A DNA stretch of 48,719 bases, taken from Hyphomonadaceae bacterium. Lineage in GTDB: Bacteria > Pseudomonadota > Alphaproteobacteria > Caulobacterales > Aquidulcibacteraceae. A program made the position numbers and the translations under genes. Every line of letters starts with the position of its first letter. The first letter of the stretch is position 1. The notes under the pieces are model-generated. The model was not told the DNA's origin. It searched no databases and worked only from the letters and a program-made list of their open reading frames with translations. The stretch is from contig JAKFWO010000019.1 in assembly GCA_021731815.1 (NCBI GenBank), positions 1 through 48,719 of the forward strand, given 5' to 3'. Of the stretch, positions 2,254-42,335 are shown piece by piece.

Positions 2254-2784
2254 GAAAAGCTCCTGCAGAATTCTGTGAGGTCGGCGCTCCGGGGCGCGGC
2301 CTGCGCCGTGCGAGCGCCAGTGTCGCGACCCGTCGCCGCCCGGTTGTTGCAAACAATTCTCAATCGCGATTTAGCACAACGCACTATGGATGCAAGCCAG
2401 TGGTTCGATTCAGACATTTGCATCCCGCCTCCCCGAGACGTTCGGCAAATGTCTGAATCATCAGAACCACTGGCAAGGTGTTGATTCGAGTGGAGCTGTT
2501 GAATTTGACATTTGAGCAGGCGCTTCGGGTGAGCGGGACTCAAATGTCAAATTCGCTCCACTAATGGTTCGATTCAGACATTTGCATCCCGCCTCCCCGA
2601 GACGTTCGGCAAATGTCTGAATCATCAGAACCACTGGCAAGGTGTTGATTCGAGTGGAGCTGTTGAATTTGACATTTGAGCAGGCGCTTCGGGTGAGCGG
2701 GACTCAAATGTCAAATTCGCTCCACAGGGGATGCCGCCCTCTCGCTTCATCAATTTTAACCGGACAAATGTTCACATGCGGGTC
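2254..2784. other. Gene-free stretch holding duplicated palindromic repeats
   Basis: About 530 bases with no credible gene. It holds the fbpA leader and then the duplicated C+B palindromes listed separately. The short open frames here read through the palindromes and show no coding character. No Fur-box match was recognised in front of fbpA. Confidence 0.6.
2396..2725. repeat. Composite palindromic repeat (types C and B), tandemly duplicated with a 164-bp period
   Basis: Two copies of the same composite unit start at 2401 and 2565. Each unit holds two long hairpins. Type C (2396-2474 and 2565-2638) has arms reading GTGGTTC, ATTCAGACATTTGC and their complements around a loop of about 20 nt. 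Type B (2490-2561 and 2654-2725) has arms GTGGAGC and GAATTTGACATTTGAG with complements. The two copies look identical over about 160 bp. The GCCAG extension of the first C arm is lost in the second copy, where CTAA precedes it. Related elements occur at 20226-20503, 29410-29633 and 41151-41339, so this is an interspersed intergenic family. I see no encoded transposase. Confidence 0.9.
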
Positions 2785-20128: not shown

Positions 20129-20225
20129 GCATGGTCCTTTGGTGAGAGTTCAGAGGGCAGGGGTCCGGGGCAATCCCGGGGGAAGAGTGAAGTTTTGGGA
20201 CCCGGTGTGCCTCGTACCGGAAACC

Positions 20226-20337
20226 AGAGCATTTTCAAGGAAATCCGAGCCGAATGTCTGAATTGAAAATGCTCGGATTCAAGGATTTGGAGCGCGTTCA
20301 GGCGAAAAACCGGATGTCACTTTTTCTGAACGCGCTC
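20226..20337. repeat. Palindromic repeat type A, copy 1
   Basis: Two hairpins. The first has arms AGCATTTTCA and TGAAAATGCT around an AATGTCTGAATT core. The second has 12-nt arms GAGCGCGTTCAG and CTGAACGCGCTC. Near-identical to the copies at 29410, 29523 and 41151. Confidence 0.9.
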
Positions 20338-20338
20338 A

Positions 20339-20414
20339 AGTGGAGCGGACCAAACATTCGCTACCCACTTGCGCGCCAACCTCCGAGCCGAATGTTTGGT
20401 CCATAAGCTCCACT
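20339..20414. repeat. Palindromic repeat related to type B
   Basis: Outer arms AGTGGAGC and GCTCCACT, with inner arms GGACCAAACATTCG and CGAATGTTTGGTCC. The outer arms match type B at 2490; the inner arms have diverged by paired changes, so the stem is kept. Confidence 0.85.
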
Positions 20415-20431
20415 AAGCTCATGTTTACAGC

Positions 20432-20503
20432 GTGGTTCTTATGAATCTGACATTTGCAATCGCGCACGGCCAAAATGGGATGCAAATGTCAGATTCGAAC
20501 CAC
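20432..20503. repeat. Palindromic repeat type C touching the GT4 stop codon
   Basis: Arms GTGGTTC and GAATCTGACATTTGC with their complements. Its right end runs into the TAG stop (20505-20503, minus strand) of the glycosyltransferase gene, which reads CTAG across the junction. Confidence 0.88.
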
Positions 20504-21621
20504 TAGTCCCGAACACCCTGTTCCGCCCCGGCGACGATTTTCGTCTTTTTGCGCCGGAACAGCCGGATGAGCCGCAGGCGCTTCCAGAAACGGCGGCGTT
20601 CAAGTGGCGGCAATTGCTGGAGATTGCGCACGAATTCCTCGGCACAGGCGCGCCAGGAAAAACGCTCGGCATAAGCCCGACAATCCGCCCGATCCATGGC
20701 AAGTGCTTCCTCGATGGCGGTGCGGAGATTGATATTGATTGCGCCTGCTTTTGAGCCCGGAATGATGTCCTTGGGGCCGGGGGCCGGGAACGCCGCGACC
20801 GGCGTGCCGGCGGCCATGGCTTCGAGAATCACGAGGCCGAAAGTGTCGGTGAGCGAGGGGAAGACGAAGACATCCGAATCGGCAAAATAGCGGGCCAGTT
20901 CCTCCCCGAAGCGCGGTCCGGCAAAATGCGCGTCCGGATATTTTTCCGCCAATTCTTCGCGCTGGGGGCCGTCGCCGACCAGAACCTTCGTGCCTGGCAG
21001 GTCAAGTTTCAGGAATTCCTCGAGATTCTTTTCGACCGCCACCCGTCCCACGCTCAGCATGATCGGGCGCGGCAGATCGGCGAACATGCCGCCATCGAGC
21101 CCACGCTTCGCGGGGTCGAACATGTCGGTATCTACACCGCGGCTCCAGGCCTCGATATTGGTAAAGCGTTTGGCGACCAGTTCATCGCGCATCGAAGGCG
21201 TGGCGACCAGCATTCGCCCCGAGGGCCGGTGGAACCAGCGCATATAGGCATAGCCCGCCCAGAGAGGGATCGGCAGGCGCGCGGTCACATATTCAGGAAA
21301 CCGCGTGTGATAGCTCGTGGAAAACGGGAAGCGGTGCTTGATGCAGATCGACCGCATCGCGATCCCCAGCGTGCCCTCGGTCGCGATGTGAACTGCATCG
21401 GGCGCGAAAGCGAGGAAACGTTCCTCGACCTTTGCGCGTGCATTCACCGCAAGGCGAATCTCGGGATAGGTGATAAGCGGCACGGTTTTGAAGCCATCGG
21501 TGGGCGCAACGACTTCGACTTCGTGGCCGAGCCCCCGGCATTCATCGATGACGCGCGACAGGGTCCGCACCACGCCATTGACCTGGGGTTCCCACGCATC
21601 GGTGACAAGAAAAATCCGCAT
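20503..21621 (-). CDS. Glycosyltransferase family 4 (GT-B fold)
   Basis: GT4 glycosyltransferase, about 372 residues, similar in layout to MgtA/SqdX-like lipid glycosyltransferases. From ATG 21621 the N-terminus is MRIFLVTDAWEPQVNGVVRTL, the typical first strand and glycine loop; the longer frame adds repeat-derived residues and is rejected. The C-terminal nucleotide-sugar domain has PIMLSVGRVAVEKNLEEFL, VLVGDGPQ and FVFPSLTDTFGLVILEAMA, which holds the conserved glutamate. A basic tail (RRRFWKRLRLIRLFRRKKTK) may bind membrane. The product is probably a glycolipid or exopolysaccharide; donor and acceptor are unknown. Its TAG stop abuts a type C repeat. Downstream of the sensor kinase on the same strand. 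Confidence 0.88.
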   Translation of the reverse strand: MRIFLVTDAWEPQVNGVVRTLSRVIDECRGLGHEVEVVAPTDGFKTVPLITYPEIRLAVNARAKVEERFLAFAPDAVHIATEGTLGIAMRSICIKHRFPFSTSYHTRFPEYVTARLPIPLWAGYAYMRWFHRPSGRMLVATPSMRDELVAKRFTNIEAWSRGVDTDMFDPAKRGLDGGMFADLPRPIMLSVGRVAVEKNLEEFLKLDLPGTKVLVGDGPQREELAEKYPDAHFAGPRFGEELARYFADSDVFVFPSLTDTFGLVILEAMAAGTPVAAFPAPGPKDIIPGSKAGAININLRTAIEEALAMDRADCRAYAERFSWRACAEEFVRNLQQLPPLERRRFWKRLRLIRLFRRKKTKIVAGAEQGVRD

Positions 21622-29409: not shown

Positions 29410-29633
29410 AGAGCATTTTCAAGGAAATCCGAGCCGAATGTCTGAATTGAAAATGCTCGGATTCAAGGATTTGGAGCGCGTTCAGGCGAAAACCGGATTC
29501 CACTTTTTCTGAACGCGCTCTGGAGCATTTTCAACGAAATCCGAGCCGAATGTCTGAATTGAAAATGCTCGGATTCAAGGATTTGGAGCGCGTTCAGGCG
29601 AAAAACCGGATTCCACTTTTTCTGAACGCGCTC
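29410..29633. repeat. Two tandem copies of palindromic repeat type A
   Basis: Copy one covers 29410-29520 and copy two 29523-29633, with TG between. They differ by very few bases. Each has the AGCATTTTCA/TGAAAATGCT stem and the 12-bp GAGCGCGTTCAG/CTGAACGCGCTC stem. They lie between the TonB receptor leader and the 3' end of the P-II gene. Confidence 0.92.
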
Positions 29634-40009: not shown

Positions 40010-41152
40010 ATGACGAATGTCCCGGGCAATGGCCCGAAGAAAACCGGTTTGCCCAAAAACGGGCCAGCGAAACCTCCCGGGTCAACGGCACAGCGCAATG
40101 CCATCCCGCCCCGGGCCGCAAAACCCGATGGCGACAAGAAAGTGAGCCTTGCCTTGCAAGGGGGCGGCGCGCATGGGGCCTATGCGTGGGGCGTCATGGA
40201 TTATCTGCTGGAGGACGGCCGCGTTGCCATCCCAGCCGTGACCGCCACCAGTGCGGGTGCCATGAACGCCGTGGCCTATGCCTATGGCTTCATGCGGGGC
40301 GGCAGGGAAGGTGCGCGCGAGACGCTGCATAATTTCTGGGATGCCGTGGCCCGCAAGGGTGCGCTCTTTTCCCCCTTCGCCCAGAATCGCTGGATGCAGA
40401 TGACGCCGTTCTCGCCTTTCGCATTTTTCAGCGCGATGGCCAATTACGCCAGCCCTTATGATCTCAACCCGTTCGATTTCAACCCGTTACGCGATATTCT
40501 CGACGAAATGATCGATTTCGGCGAACTCAATCGCTGCAAGACGATCAAGCTCTTTATCTCCGCGACCAGCGTCGCCACCGGCAAGGCGAAGGTCTTCGAC
40601 CGCACGACGGTGACGCGCGAGGCGGTGCTGGCTTCCGCCTGCCTGCCGCAAATGTTCCAGGCGGTGGAGATCGAAGGGGAATCCTATTGGGACGGGGGCT
40701 ATGTCTCCAATCCGGCTTTGTTTCCCCTGTTTTACGAGGACACGCCGCGCGATGTCCTGATCGTGCATCTCAATCCCATCACGCGGCACGACACCCCCCG
40801 ATCGGCGGCCGACATTGCCAATCGTCTCAACGAGATTACCTTCAACGCCGCCCTCATCGCCGAATTGCGCGCCATTGCCTTTGTCCAGCGTCTGCTCGAC
40901 GAAAACTGGCTGACCCGCACCATCCGCAGCCGGTATCGCCGGATCCTCGTACATGCCATTCGCGCCGACCGGACCTTGGCCGATCTCTCGGTCGAGTCGA
41001 AATTCGACACGTCCTGGGAATTCCTGACCGATCTGCGTGACCGGGGGCGGGAAGCGGCGGCGCAATTTCTGGAGGCGCATTTCAGCGATCTCGGCCGCAA
41101 ATCCACAGTCGATGTCCGCGAGGAATTTCTGGAGCCAGCGCTAAATCGCTAG
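40010..41152 (+). CDS. Patatin-like phospholipase, no cNMP domain
   Basis: Predicted serine acyl hydrolase, 380 residues, with a basic Pro/Lys-rich N-terminus. The oxyanion loop is LQGGGAHGAYAWG. The nucleophile elbow reads TATSAGAMNA, so the first glycine of GxSxG is alanine while the serine and the last glycine are kept. The catalytic aspartate lies in YWDGGYVSNPALF. The dyad is thus present. It is a different subfamily from the patatin at 5149-6933. Its TAG stop directly abuts, and shares bases with, a type A repeat. Confidence 0.87.
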   Translation: MTNVPGNGPKKTGLPKNGPAKPPGSTAQRNAIPPRAAKPDGDKKVSLALQGGGAHGAYAWGVMDYLLEDGRVAIPAVTATSAGAMNAVAYAYGFMRGGREGARETLHNFWDAVARKGALFSPFAQNRWMQMTPFSPFAFFSAMANYASPYDLNPFDFNPLRDILDEMIDFGELNRCKTIKLFISATSVATGKAKVFDRTTVTREAVLASACLPQMFQAVEIEGESYWDGGYVSNPALFPLFYEDTPRDVLIVHLNPITRHDTPRSAADIANRLNEITFNAALIAELRAIAFVQRLLDENWLTRTIRSRYRRILVHAIRADRTLADLSVESKFDTSWEFLTDLRDRGREAAAQFLEAHFSDLGRKSTVDVREEFLEPALNR

Positions 41153-41262
41153 AGCATTTTCAAGGAAATCCGAGCCGAATGTCTGAATTGAAAATGCTCA
41201 GATTCAATGACTTAGAGCGCGTTTAGGCGAAAGCCAGACTCCACTTTTTCTGAACGCGCTCT
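41151..41262. repeat. Palindromic repeat type A, diverged copy
   Basis: Same two-hairpin layout as the other type A copies but with more substitutions (CTCAGATTCAATGACTTAGA in the middle, GCGTTTAGGC in the second stem). Its first bases AG are the last two bases of the patatin TAG stop. Confidence 0.88.
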
Positions 41263-41310
41263 GGTTGTGGAACTTCAACAGGTTGTCCATTGCTCGCCAG
41301 CTGGTATCAA

Positions 41311-41339
41311 TGGGATGCAAATGTCAGAATCAAACCACT
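41311..41339. repeat. Half of a type C palindrome at the ubiG stop codon
   Basis: The stretch from TGGGATGCAAATGTC to CAAACCACT equals the right arm of a type C element; the left arm is absent. It runs into the ubiG TAG stop (41340-41338, minus strand), again reading CTAG at the junction. Confidence 0.8.
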
Positions 41340-42108
41340 AGCCATTTCCCGGCCCGGTTTTTTCGGCACCGAGCATGTAATTGACCGAACAATCGGGCGT
41401 GAGGACAAAACGATCGGCGAGGGGCTGCCATGTCACGCCGATTGGCGGGTGGACGCGCAGGCCGACCGCCTCGAGCCCTCCGGCCAATTCCTCGGGGCGG
41501 ATAAATTTGTCGAATTCATGCGTGCCCGCCGGCAGCCAGCGCAACACATATTCGGCCAGACCGATGGCCAGCGCGCGTGCCCTCAGCGTGCGGTTGATGG
41601 TGGCGGCAAACAACAATCCACCCGGCCCCAAGGCGCGGGCGGCGGCGGCGTAGAAATCCGGCAGGCTCTCGACATGTTCGAGCACTTCCATGGCCAGAAC
41701 CACGTCGAAGGCGTCGATATGCGTGTCGGAAAAATGCTCGATCGCACCGGTTTCGTAGTGGATCGCGAGCCCCATCATTTCGGCATGGGCACTGGCGGCG
41801 GCGATGCCTTCGGGGGCTGCGTCCAGTCCGGTCACGTCCGCACCAAGCCTTGCGAGGGGCTCGGACAACAACCCGCCGCCGCAGCCAATATCGAGGATCG
41901 AAAGCCCGATCAGCGGCCGCCGCAAGTCCGGATCGCGCCCCAGCCTGCGGCAGATTTCATCGCGCAGGAAACCAATTCGCAATGGGTTGAGCCGGTGCAA
42001 CGGGCGCATCGGCCCGTCTTCCGCCCACCAGTGATCCGCAAGCGCGCCGAATTTTTCGGCCTCGCGAGGCGAGACGGAGGGGGCCTGCGGGATTTCCGGA
42101 ATGCTCAA
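41338..42108 (-). CDS. ubiG: Ubiquinone biosynthesis O-methyltransferase
   Basis: SAM-dependent O-methylation of two hydroxyls in ubiquinone synthesis. 256 residues from TTG 42108. That start has GGAGG about 7 nt upstream and overlaps the stop of the XRE gene as TTGA; an upstream ATG at 42183 would overlap that gene by 79 nt. Signature features: ADHWWAEDGPMRPLHRLNPLRI, motif I LDIGCGGGLLSEPLARLGA, MEVLEHV, and the C-terminal SVNYMLGA. Its stop codon abuts half of a type C repeat. Confidence 0.96.
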   Translation of the reverse strand: MSIPEIPQAPSVSPREAEKFGALADHWWAEDGPMRPLHRLNPLRIGFLRDEICRRLGRDPDLRRPLIGLSILDIGCGGGLLSEPLARLGADVTGLDAAPEGIAAASAHAEMMGLAIHYETGAIEHFSDTHIDAFDVVLAMEVLEHVESLPDFYAAAARALGPGGLLFAATINRTLRARALAIGLAEYVLRWLPAGTHEFDKFIRPEELAGGLEAVGLRVHPPIGVTWQPLADRFVLTPDCSVNYMLGAEKTGPGNG

Positions 42109-42335
42109 TCCCCGTCCTCCGGTGCCGGGTCCTCGGGGGCGAATTGCAGAATATCGCCCGGCTGGCATTTCAGCTCGCGGCACAGGGCATCAAGCGTCGA
42201 GAACCGGATGGCGCGCGCCTTCCCGGTCTTGAGGATCGACAGATTGGCGATGGTGATGCCGACGCGGTCGCATAATTCCGTGAGCGACATGCGTCGCTCC
42301 AGCAACATGCGGTCGAGGGTGACGCGAATACCCAT
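42105..42335 (-). CDS. XRE-family HTH regulator (YozG-like)
   Basis: A 76-residue Cro/C1-type DNA-binding protein: LTELCDRVGITIANLSILKT is the helix-turn-helix, and LDALCRELKCQPGDIL the conserved third/fourth helix. It begins 5 nt after the DUF2975 gene. Such HTH-plus-DUF2975 pairs are common in bacteria and are presumed to be a membrane protein with its regulator. Its stop overlaps the ubiG TTG start, so ubiG translation is tied to it. Confidence 0.9.
   Translation of the reverse strand: MGIRVTLDRMLLERRMSLTELCDRVGITIANLSILKTGKARAIRFSTLDALCRELKCQPGDILQFAPEDPAPEDGD

Follow-up and report, generated by a model that had tools for sequence, protein, structure and literature searches.

Why do three genes in one stretch of bacterial DNA end in the same rare tetramer, CTAG, at the very base where a short repeat element starts? 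The stretch, hereafter the window, comprises 48,719 nucleotides of a Hyphomonadaceae bacterium (assembly GCA_021731815.1, contig JAKFWO010000019.1), whose genome (G000) has 2,531,755 bases in 48 contigs. The genes code for a patatin-like phospholipase, UbiG and a GT4-type glycosyltransferase, and their stops at CTAG element junctions were confirmed as originally described. Our analysis suggests that the elements are probably IS630-type miniature inverted-repeat transposable elements (MITEs) that inserted at the TA of CTAG, that edges without a role as stops have decayed, most simply via the repair enzyme Vsr, and that edges serving as stops were kept by selection. The elements of the window and the genes that they touch were as follows.

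40010..41152, + strand: patatin-like phospholipase gene; weak NCBIfam matches below the cut-off, C-terminus resembling that of homologues.
41149..41152, + strand: CTAG junction, stop CGC-TAG of the patatin-like gene (TAG 41150-41152); the G of TAG is element base 1.
41152..41261, + strand: AB element, hairpins A then B (87.6 bits; consensus 111 bp).
41261..41264, no strand: junction where the AB element adjoins the next one, CTGG today as read from the sequence; not a stop, apparently decayed.
41264..41338, - strand: second element, a mosaic with a C-type end on its right (41286-41338); left outside the mapped set because of its degradation.
41338..41341, - strand: CTAG junction, stop GGC-TAG of ubiG (TAG 41340-41338).
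41338..42183, - strand: ubiG (TIGR01983), convergent with the patatin-like gene.
20224..20227, no strand: left junction of the array at 20 kb, CCAG; not a stop, apparently decayed.
20227..20337, + strand: AB element.
20337..20340, no strand: inner junction, CAAG; not a stop, apparently decayed.
20340..20503, + strand: D2C2 element, two hairpins, 164 bp.
20503..20506, - strand: CTAG junction, stop GAC-TAG of the GT4-type glycosyltransferase gene (TAG 20505-20503).
29411..29633, + strand: tandem AB pair; junctions CCAG (29408), CTGG (29520) and CTGA (29633), no stop.
2400..2725, + strand: tandem CD pair; junctions CCAG (2397), CTAA (2561) and CAGG (2725), no stop.

The window contained three CTAGs, compared with 31.6 expected from dinucleotide shuffles, and each of them was both an element edge and an in-frame TAG stop. 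Twelve element junctions could be read: CTAG occurred at three, all stops, and the others were CCAG (3), CTGG (2), CTAA, CAGG, CAAG and CTGA, none of which was a stop. The patatin/ubiG array had CTAG stops at both outer edges and a non-stop CTGG at its inner edge. The AG at 41151 had been taken as the start of the element; alignment of all copies moved element base 1 to the G at 41152, so that in the patatin stop T and A are flank bases and G is an element base.

CTAG, described as rare in the original prediction, was indeed avoided in this genome. A blind 400-kb sample contained 42 copies, with an observed/expected ratio of 0.30 under a trinucleotide chain and 0.15 under a dinucleotide chain. 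Only one of these 42 served as the stop of a gene at the edge of an element, which makes the three of three in the window unusual for this genome too. Fifteen of the 42 lay within about 12 kb (G000:C8:60001-80000; L156 5534-17402), perhaps in recently acquired DNA in which CTAG depletion is still pending.

Elements and their edges were surveyed in 609 kb of the genome, comprising the window, the blind sample and the surroundings of copies, and thus partly chosen by the elements themselves. Copies were mapped by nhmmer, and 88 matches, fragments included, were obtained: 70 AB (111 bp), 12 CD (162 bp) and 6 D2C2 (164 bp). The A head had 56 matches in the genome with at most three mismatches, and the C tail had 18. 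Intact elements began with G and finished with C, and some stood in tandem with one dinucleotide in common. Their small size (111-164 bp), high copy number and lack of an internal transposase fit IS630-derived MITEs. Triple AB arrays with a spacing of about 113 bp, sharing one junction dinucleotide, were seen at G000 C1:159711-160046, C29:19357-19693 and C30:4703-5037; in the first of these the dinucleotide was CG, i.e., both bases had changed.

We then read the tetramer at each outer end as the three adjacent flank bases followed by base 1 of the element. The 124 ends were CTAG (30, or 31 with G assumed as base 1), CCAG (29), CTGG (26), CGAG (6), TCAG (5), CTCG (5), ATAG (3) and rarer forms. 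The degraded C-type fragment at ubiG stood outside the 88 matches and its edge therefore outside the 124 ends, and the edge at 41261 was counted as an outer end, the next fragment starting only at 41286. The original prediction had named a lack of CTAG at most copies as evidence against targeting, and taken literally most ends did lack it; but most of these were CCAG or CTGG, a single transition away, so that CTAG and these two forms made up 30 and 55 of the 124 ends. In G020, one of the relatives described below, all 16 outer ends were CTAG.

An end was scored as a stop only when TAG was present and was the exact stop of a gene, called with a home-made codon-usage gene caller, that read into the element. 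TA was present at 37 ends, of which 23 were such stops and 14 were not, a count that is partly circular because the stop score requires TAG; the remaining 87 ends had CA (34), TG (26), CG (4) or other dinucleotides (23). The partner end of a stop-anchored element is a better test. At 16 such far ends, a small sample that includes the window edge at 41261, CTAG was found once, together with CCAG (5), CTGG (4), CTCG (3), TCAG (2) and CCGA (1). A called gene overran the junction at one of the 124 ends (by 66 bases, C24:48607). The suggestion that insertion is targeted to CTAG, stop codons of this form included, is supported; since most non-stop CTAG edges appear to have decayed, however, much of the coincidence of CTAG with stops looks like survival. 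Three AB copies (G000 C18:52873, C30:27098 and C3:68434) had an alternative right end, GCTCACATC, followed by TAG, and a CTAG 3-5 bases further out was the stop of the gene entering the element. These ends were scored as other; this form is perhaps a variant terminus that marks three more stop-codon insertions.

Non-stop ends had TA in 14 cases, CA or TG in 60 and CG in 4, whereas 24.8, 38.4 and 14.8 would be expected if the two bases had changed independently. Single changes dominate and CCGG is scarce, suggesting that CTAG itself was the substrate. When the flank base was C, which gives CTAGG on the other strand, 18 ends were CTGG and 2 were CCAG; with other flank bases the numbers were 8 and 27 (Fisher p 2.3e-6; AB alone 1.8e-5; C/D alone 0.07). 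A C before CTAG was present at none of the 23 stop ends. Vsr, the enzyme of very-short-patch (VSP) repair, acts on T:G in CTWGG, and the CTAGG-dependent direction of decay is the context expected of this repair. A 1992 study by Bhagwat and McClelland is said to have dealt with VSP repair and CTAG scarcity. The genome has an open E. coli-type vsr gene, whose product matched TIGR00632 (4e-39, 1-119/119) and the E. coli Vsr structure (PDB 1cw0, 7.4e-41), and which directly adjoins a gene for a Dcm-like C5 methylase.

For comparison we used relatives from other genera of the same family (G001, G020, G066, G089 and G099; G001, like G000, is a draft assembly). Against dinucleotide expectation, CTAG stood at 0.15, CTAGG at 0.08 and CTTGG at 0.56 in the window genome, versus 0.65, 0.59 and 0.62 for CTAG and 1.57, 0.81 and 1.93 for CTTGG in G001, G020 and G066, respectively. 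Vsr was not found in G001 (94% complete) and was present in 55 of 101 genomes, including G020 and G066. The pattern CYRGAGCATTTTC occurred in 42 of 101 genomes, with many copies in few of them, and AB-like elements between CTAGs were seen in other genera of the family. G001 had 48 outer ends, 27 of them CTAG; its seven stops were all CTAG, and its 41 non-stop ends were CTAG (20), AATC (4), TTAG, CTAA and CCAG (3 each), CTGG (2) and singles. Seven of the 16 CTAG ends of G020 were stops. Among 20 outer ends in G066, the 10 stops were all CTAG, and the 10 non-stops were CTAG (4), CCAG (2), CTGG (1) and three more. The same tabulation of AB elements in the window genome gave 98 ends, i.e., 19 stops and 79 non-stops, the latter including CTGG (21), CCAG (21) and CTAG (6). 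Mean divergence from the consensus was 6.7% in this genome, 6.1% in G001, 5.9% in G020 and 2.4% in G066; at similar copy divergence, AB elements kept CTAG at 6 of 79 non-stop ends here versus 20 of 41 in G001 (p 5e-7).

Elements touched a stop in six of nine cases in G020 (one at both ends) and in nine of 11 in G066 (two at both ends), more often than did ordinary intergenic CTAGs of these stretches (p 0.006 and 0.003), and no such excess was found in G001 (7/30, p 0.38); the comparison is rough, as the stretches from these three genomes were picked around elements. In other genera, as at patatin/ubiG, elements were flanked by two open frames, each longer than 100 codons, that ended in the CTAG edges of the element (G020: L201, L198; G066: L214, L209, L211). 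The gene caller supported one such case in G020 and two in G066; with the patatin/ubiG pair, elements at the stops that convergent genes have in common are thus found in three genera. Many copies in the relatives had TA or CTAG at both ends.

What moved the elements? Insertion of the IS630 family reportedly prefers CTAG, as Tenzen and Ohtsubo are said to have found in 1991. IS630 genes were detected in three of the eight genomes searched. Three copies (G099, G020 and G089; 1053-1056 bp) each had a CTAG on either side, and GAGC was present at five of their six ends; a fourth, partial match displayed its left end alone. MITE ends of G020 and G066 agreed with the IS630 ends of G099 at 12-13 of 16 bases, which 0 or 1 of 5000 shuffles reached. 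TA at both edges of the elements, together with the location of the relatives' IS630 copies between CTAGs, points to the IS630/Tc1/mariner type and not to REP/IS200. The A/B elements are most plausibly IS630-type MITEs; for the C/D elements, we infer the link to IS630 from TA edges alone. A rule that looked for TA, two terminal inverted repeats and TA around DDE genes found nothing.

Based on these observations, we propose the following course of events. The elements would have been inserted at the TA of CTAG by an IS630/Tc1/mariner-type transposase that was not found in the present genome. The TA would be duplicated, each new copy reading C-TA-[G...C]-TA-G. With G as its first and C as its last base, an element would immediately re-form TAG upon insertion into a CTAG stop, and where two tail-to-tail genes have a single CTAG in common, it would re-form the stops of both. 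CTAG edges without a function would then decay by one T-to-C change on one strand, giving CCAG or CTGG, with VSP repair by Vsr as the simplest cause, and edges used as stop codons would be held by selection.

Apart from the circular stop count and the small set of partner ends, several observations weigh against this scenario. No IS630 (PF13358) or DDE_Tnp_1 (PF01609) transposase gene was found in the window genome. The boundaries of the IS630 copies were placed at CTAGs, so that their CTAG flanks are partly a matter of construction, which does not apply to their similar lengths and GAGC ends. A/B ends of the window genome match IS630 ends weakly (9-10/16; those of G001 likewise), and C/D ends match them at chance level (4-6/16). 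No empty site was seen, and the relatives returned included no genome of the same genus; a contig scan with UbiG yielded 48 relatives, whose identity in the best segment was 47% or less. TA retention was independent of copy score (AB, p 0.87), and the age effect looked for, less diverged AB copies keeping TA, was not found. As to Vsr, the Dcm-like protein scored 411 bits on PRK10458, under the model cut-off of 710, and CCAGG/CCTGG, the expected repair product, was not enriched (1.05 versus 1.20 in G001, 1.07 in G020 and 1.54 in G066). Vsr presence taken alone also failed as a predictor of decay across relatives: G020 keeps CTAG at 9/9 non-stop ends and G066 at 4/10. The methylases beside Vsr in seven relatives had 26-31% identity to that of the window genome over long stretches, with one short match of 43%, a distance that would allow, although not prove, another Vsr specificity in these organisms.

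The lack of CCAGG enrichment and the failure of Vsr presence to predict decay in G020 and G066 would also be accommodated if CTAG edges were lost by general selection against CTAG, e.g., through restriction or DNA structure, rather than by Vsr repair; CTAG is scarce in enterobacteria too (PMC5337935). We consider this explanation unlikely as the main cause. The loss was mostly T-to-C, with CCAG and CTGG accounting for 42 of 79 non-stop AB ends, whereas CTAA and TTAG, equally good escapes, were outside the twelve commonest tetramers at these ends. In addition, the direction of decay tracked the CTAGG context, and depletion extended to CTTGG, a word without CTAG. Selection against CTAG could nevertheless contribute to edge loss.

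It is also conceivable that the enzyme targets C-YR-G in general (CTAG, CCAG and CTGG) and duplicates it as found, CTAG stops being one kind of target and no decay having occurred. This motif was common to 89 of the 124 outer ends, and the independence of TA state from copy score would agree with it. The ends of individual elements argue otherwise and make this idea very doubtful: left and right dinucleotides were alike in 6 of 26 elements (8.2 expected), elements ending in TAG had CTAG at the other end in 1 of 16 cases, and the G020 ends were CTAG without exception. A variable duplication of CA, TG or TA was rejected in view of the mismatched left and right ends and by the partner ends.

The original prediction had likened the repeats to repetitive extragenic palindromic (REP) elements moved by a Y1 transposase (REP-associated tyrosine transposase, RAYT, or IS200-type), which recognizes a tetranucleotide such as GTAG beside a hairpin and makes no target duplication. 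Two-hairpin units and tandem arrays do resemble bacterial interspersed mosaic elements (BIMEs), one Y1 gene is present in the genome, and the same picture would arise if an element with CTA at its end inserted between CTA and G without duplication. However, this sole Y1 gene found is RAYT-like and is flanked by GC-rich repeats of its own, unrelated to the AB, CD and D2C2 elements; both edges of the elements are symmetrically constrained; and the relatives' IS630 copies lie between CTAGs and share termini with the A/B elements of the relatives. REP/RAYT elements carry GTAG at the hairpin foot, and GTAG was found at one of the 124 outer ends. The analogy thus gave way to the IS630/Tc1/mariner type, and movement by a Y1 enzyme appears highly improbable. 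On both sides of the Y1 gene (G000:C36 near 10834; L167 440-1280 and 1800-1950) there were about a dozen copies of a REP-type repeat with 26-nt inverted pairs, some of them perfect.

Are the stops native, or were they made by insertion? Among 64 UbiG homologues, 61 were readable, of which 54 ended level with residues 275-281 and seven at 282-295 (the window protein has 281). Eleven of 12 patatin homologues were readable, seven ending at 374-376 and four at 385-408 (window protein, 380). GT4 homologues (29 loci) ended at 399-427, compared with 411, and at least two alignments ran through a stop. Besides the patatin-like and GT4 proteins, 20 of the 23 stop-junction proteins were run against NCBIfam, and one was not run. 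Models stopped no more than two residues short of the C-terminus in GreA, Zwf, TldD, FlgE, CheD and a FabG-like protein, and TipF ended 12 residues beyond the last model-matched residue. FtsA, a C-terminal protease, a tetratricopeptide repeat protein and a ScbR-like regulator had longer tails past their models, which are uninformative either way, and nine of the 20 had no NCBIfam family at the cut-offs used. These sequence comparisons indicate that the element-edge stops are native in most of the proteins that allowed a judgment. The idea that insertion truncates genes and fixes a new C-terminus at the junction, for which one may cite that the G of the stop comes from the element, that short tails differ among homologues and that four of the 11 readable patatin homologues exceed the window protein by 5-28 residues, was rejected for these proteins by the homologue ends and the six family models and must be considered extremely unlikely.

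The favored scenario of MITE insertion at CTAG has parallels in several known systems. Transposition of the IS630 family occurs at TA with TA duplication (PMC2170065). The elements described here are similar to members of the IS630 and Tc1/mariner group (IS630, ISY100) in having TA at both edges, a CTAG preference and, for A/B elements of the relatives, IS630 termini; unlike IS630 and ISY100, they are 111-164 bp long, lack a transposase and contain two internal hairpins, and the C/D termini differ. In Brucella, Bru-RS1 and Bru-RS2 are palindromic repeats of about 100 bp tied to TA-duplicating IS711 insertion at YTAR (PMC2266754, PMC3163539 and PMC10800456). There IS711 inserts into the palindrome, whereas here the palindromic unit itself inserts; the likeness is one of description. 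Rhizobial RIME, also likened by description, are mosaic intergenic palindromic units. Paired hairpins and tandem arrays are shared with REP/BIME units and RAYT, which differ from the elements in that the latter have symmetric CTAG-type edges and that the RAYT-like gene of this genome has its own repeats. The AB, CD and D2C2 elements are a new family within an already known element type. Enterobacterial CTAG depletion has been attributed to VSP repair (PMC5337935); the depletion is alike, but here decay was read at transposon edges, with the stop-codon end as an internal control. CTAG edges of MITEs decaying by VSP repair were not described in the literature searched, which was available in part and had most subscription journals outside it.

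The proposed insertion at CTAG would explain why an uncommon tetranucleotide, mini-transposons and stop codons are found together, and it suggests that an element landing in a stop codon may do no harm, since it re-forms the stop. Each insertion would have begun with two identical CTAGs, one of them possibly held by selection as a stop, and such pairs would provide age-matched controls when one measures the rewriting of a genome by a mismatch-repair enzyme. With somewhat less assurance than for the insertion scenario itself, we lean toward regarding transposon edges as a natural recorder of VSP repair: of two CTAGs of the same age, the functionless one would be erased with a CTAGG hierarchy and the stop would be spared, such that stops would be the main refuge of CTAG at elements and the element, as donor of one base of the stop, would be locked to the gene end.

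A search of the plasmid collection gave no match, and Rfam at gathering scores detected only a tRNA in the window. The CD pair at 2401-2725 is a perfect 161-nt tandem duplication, and a near-identical tandem pair was present at G000:C10:29986-30311.

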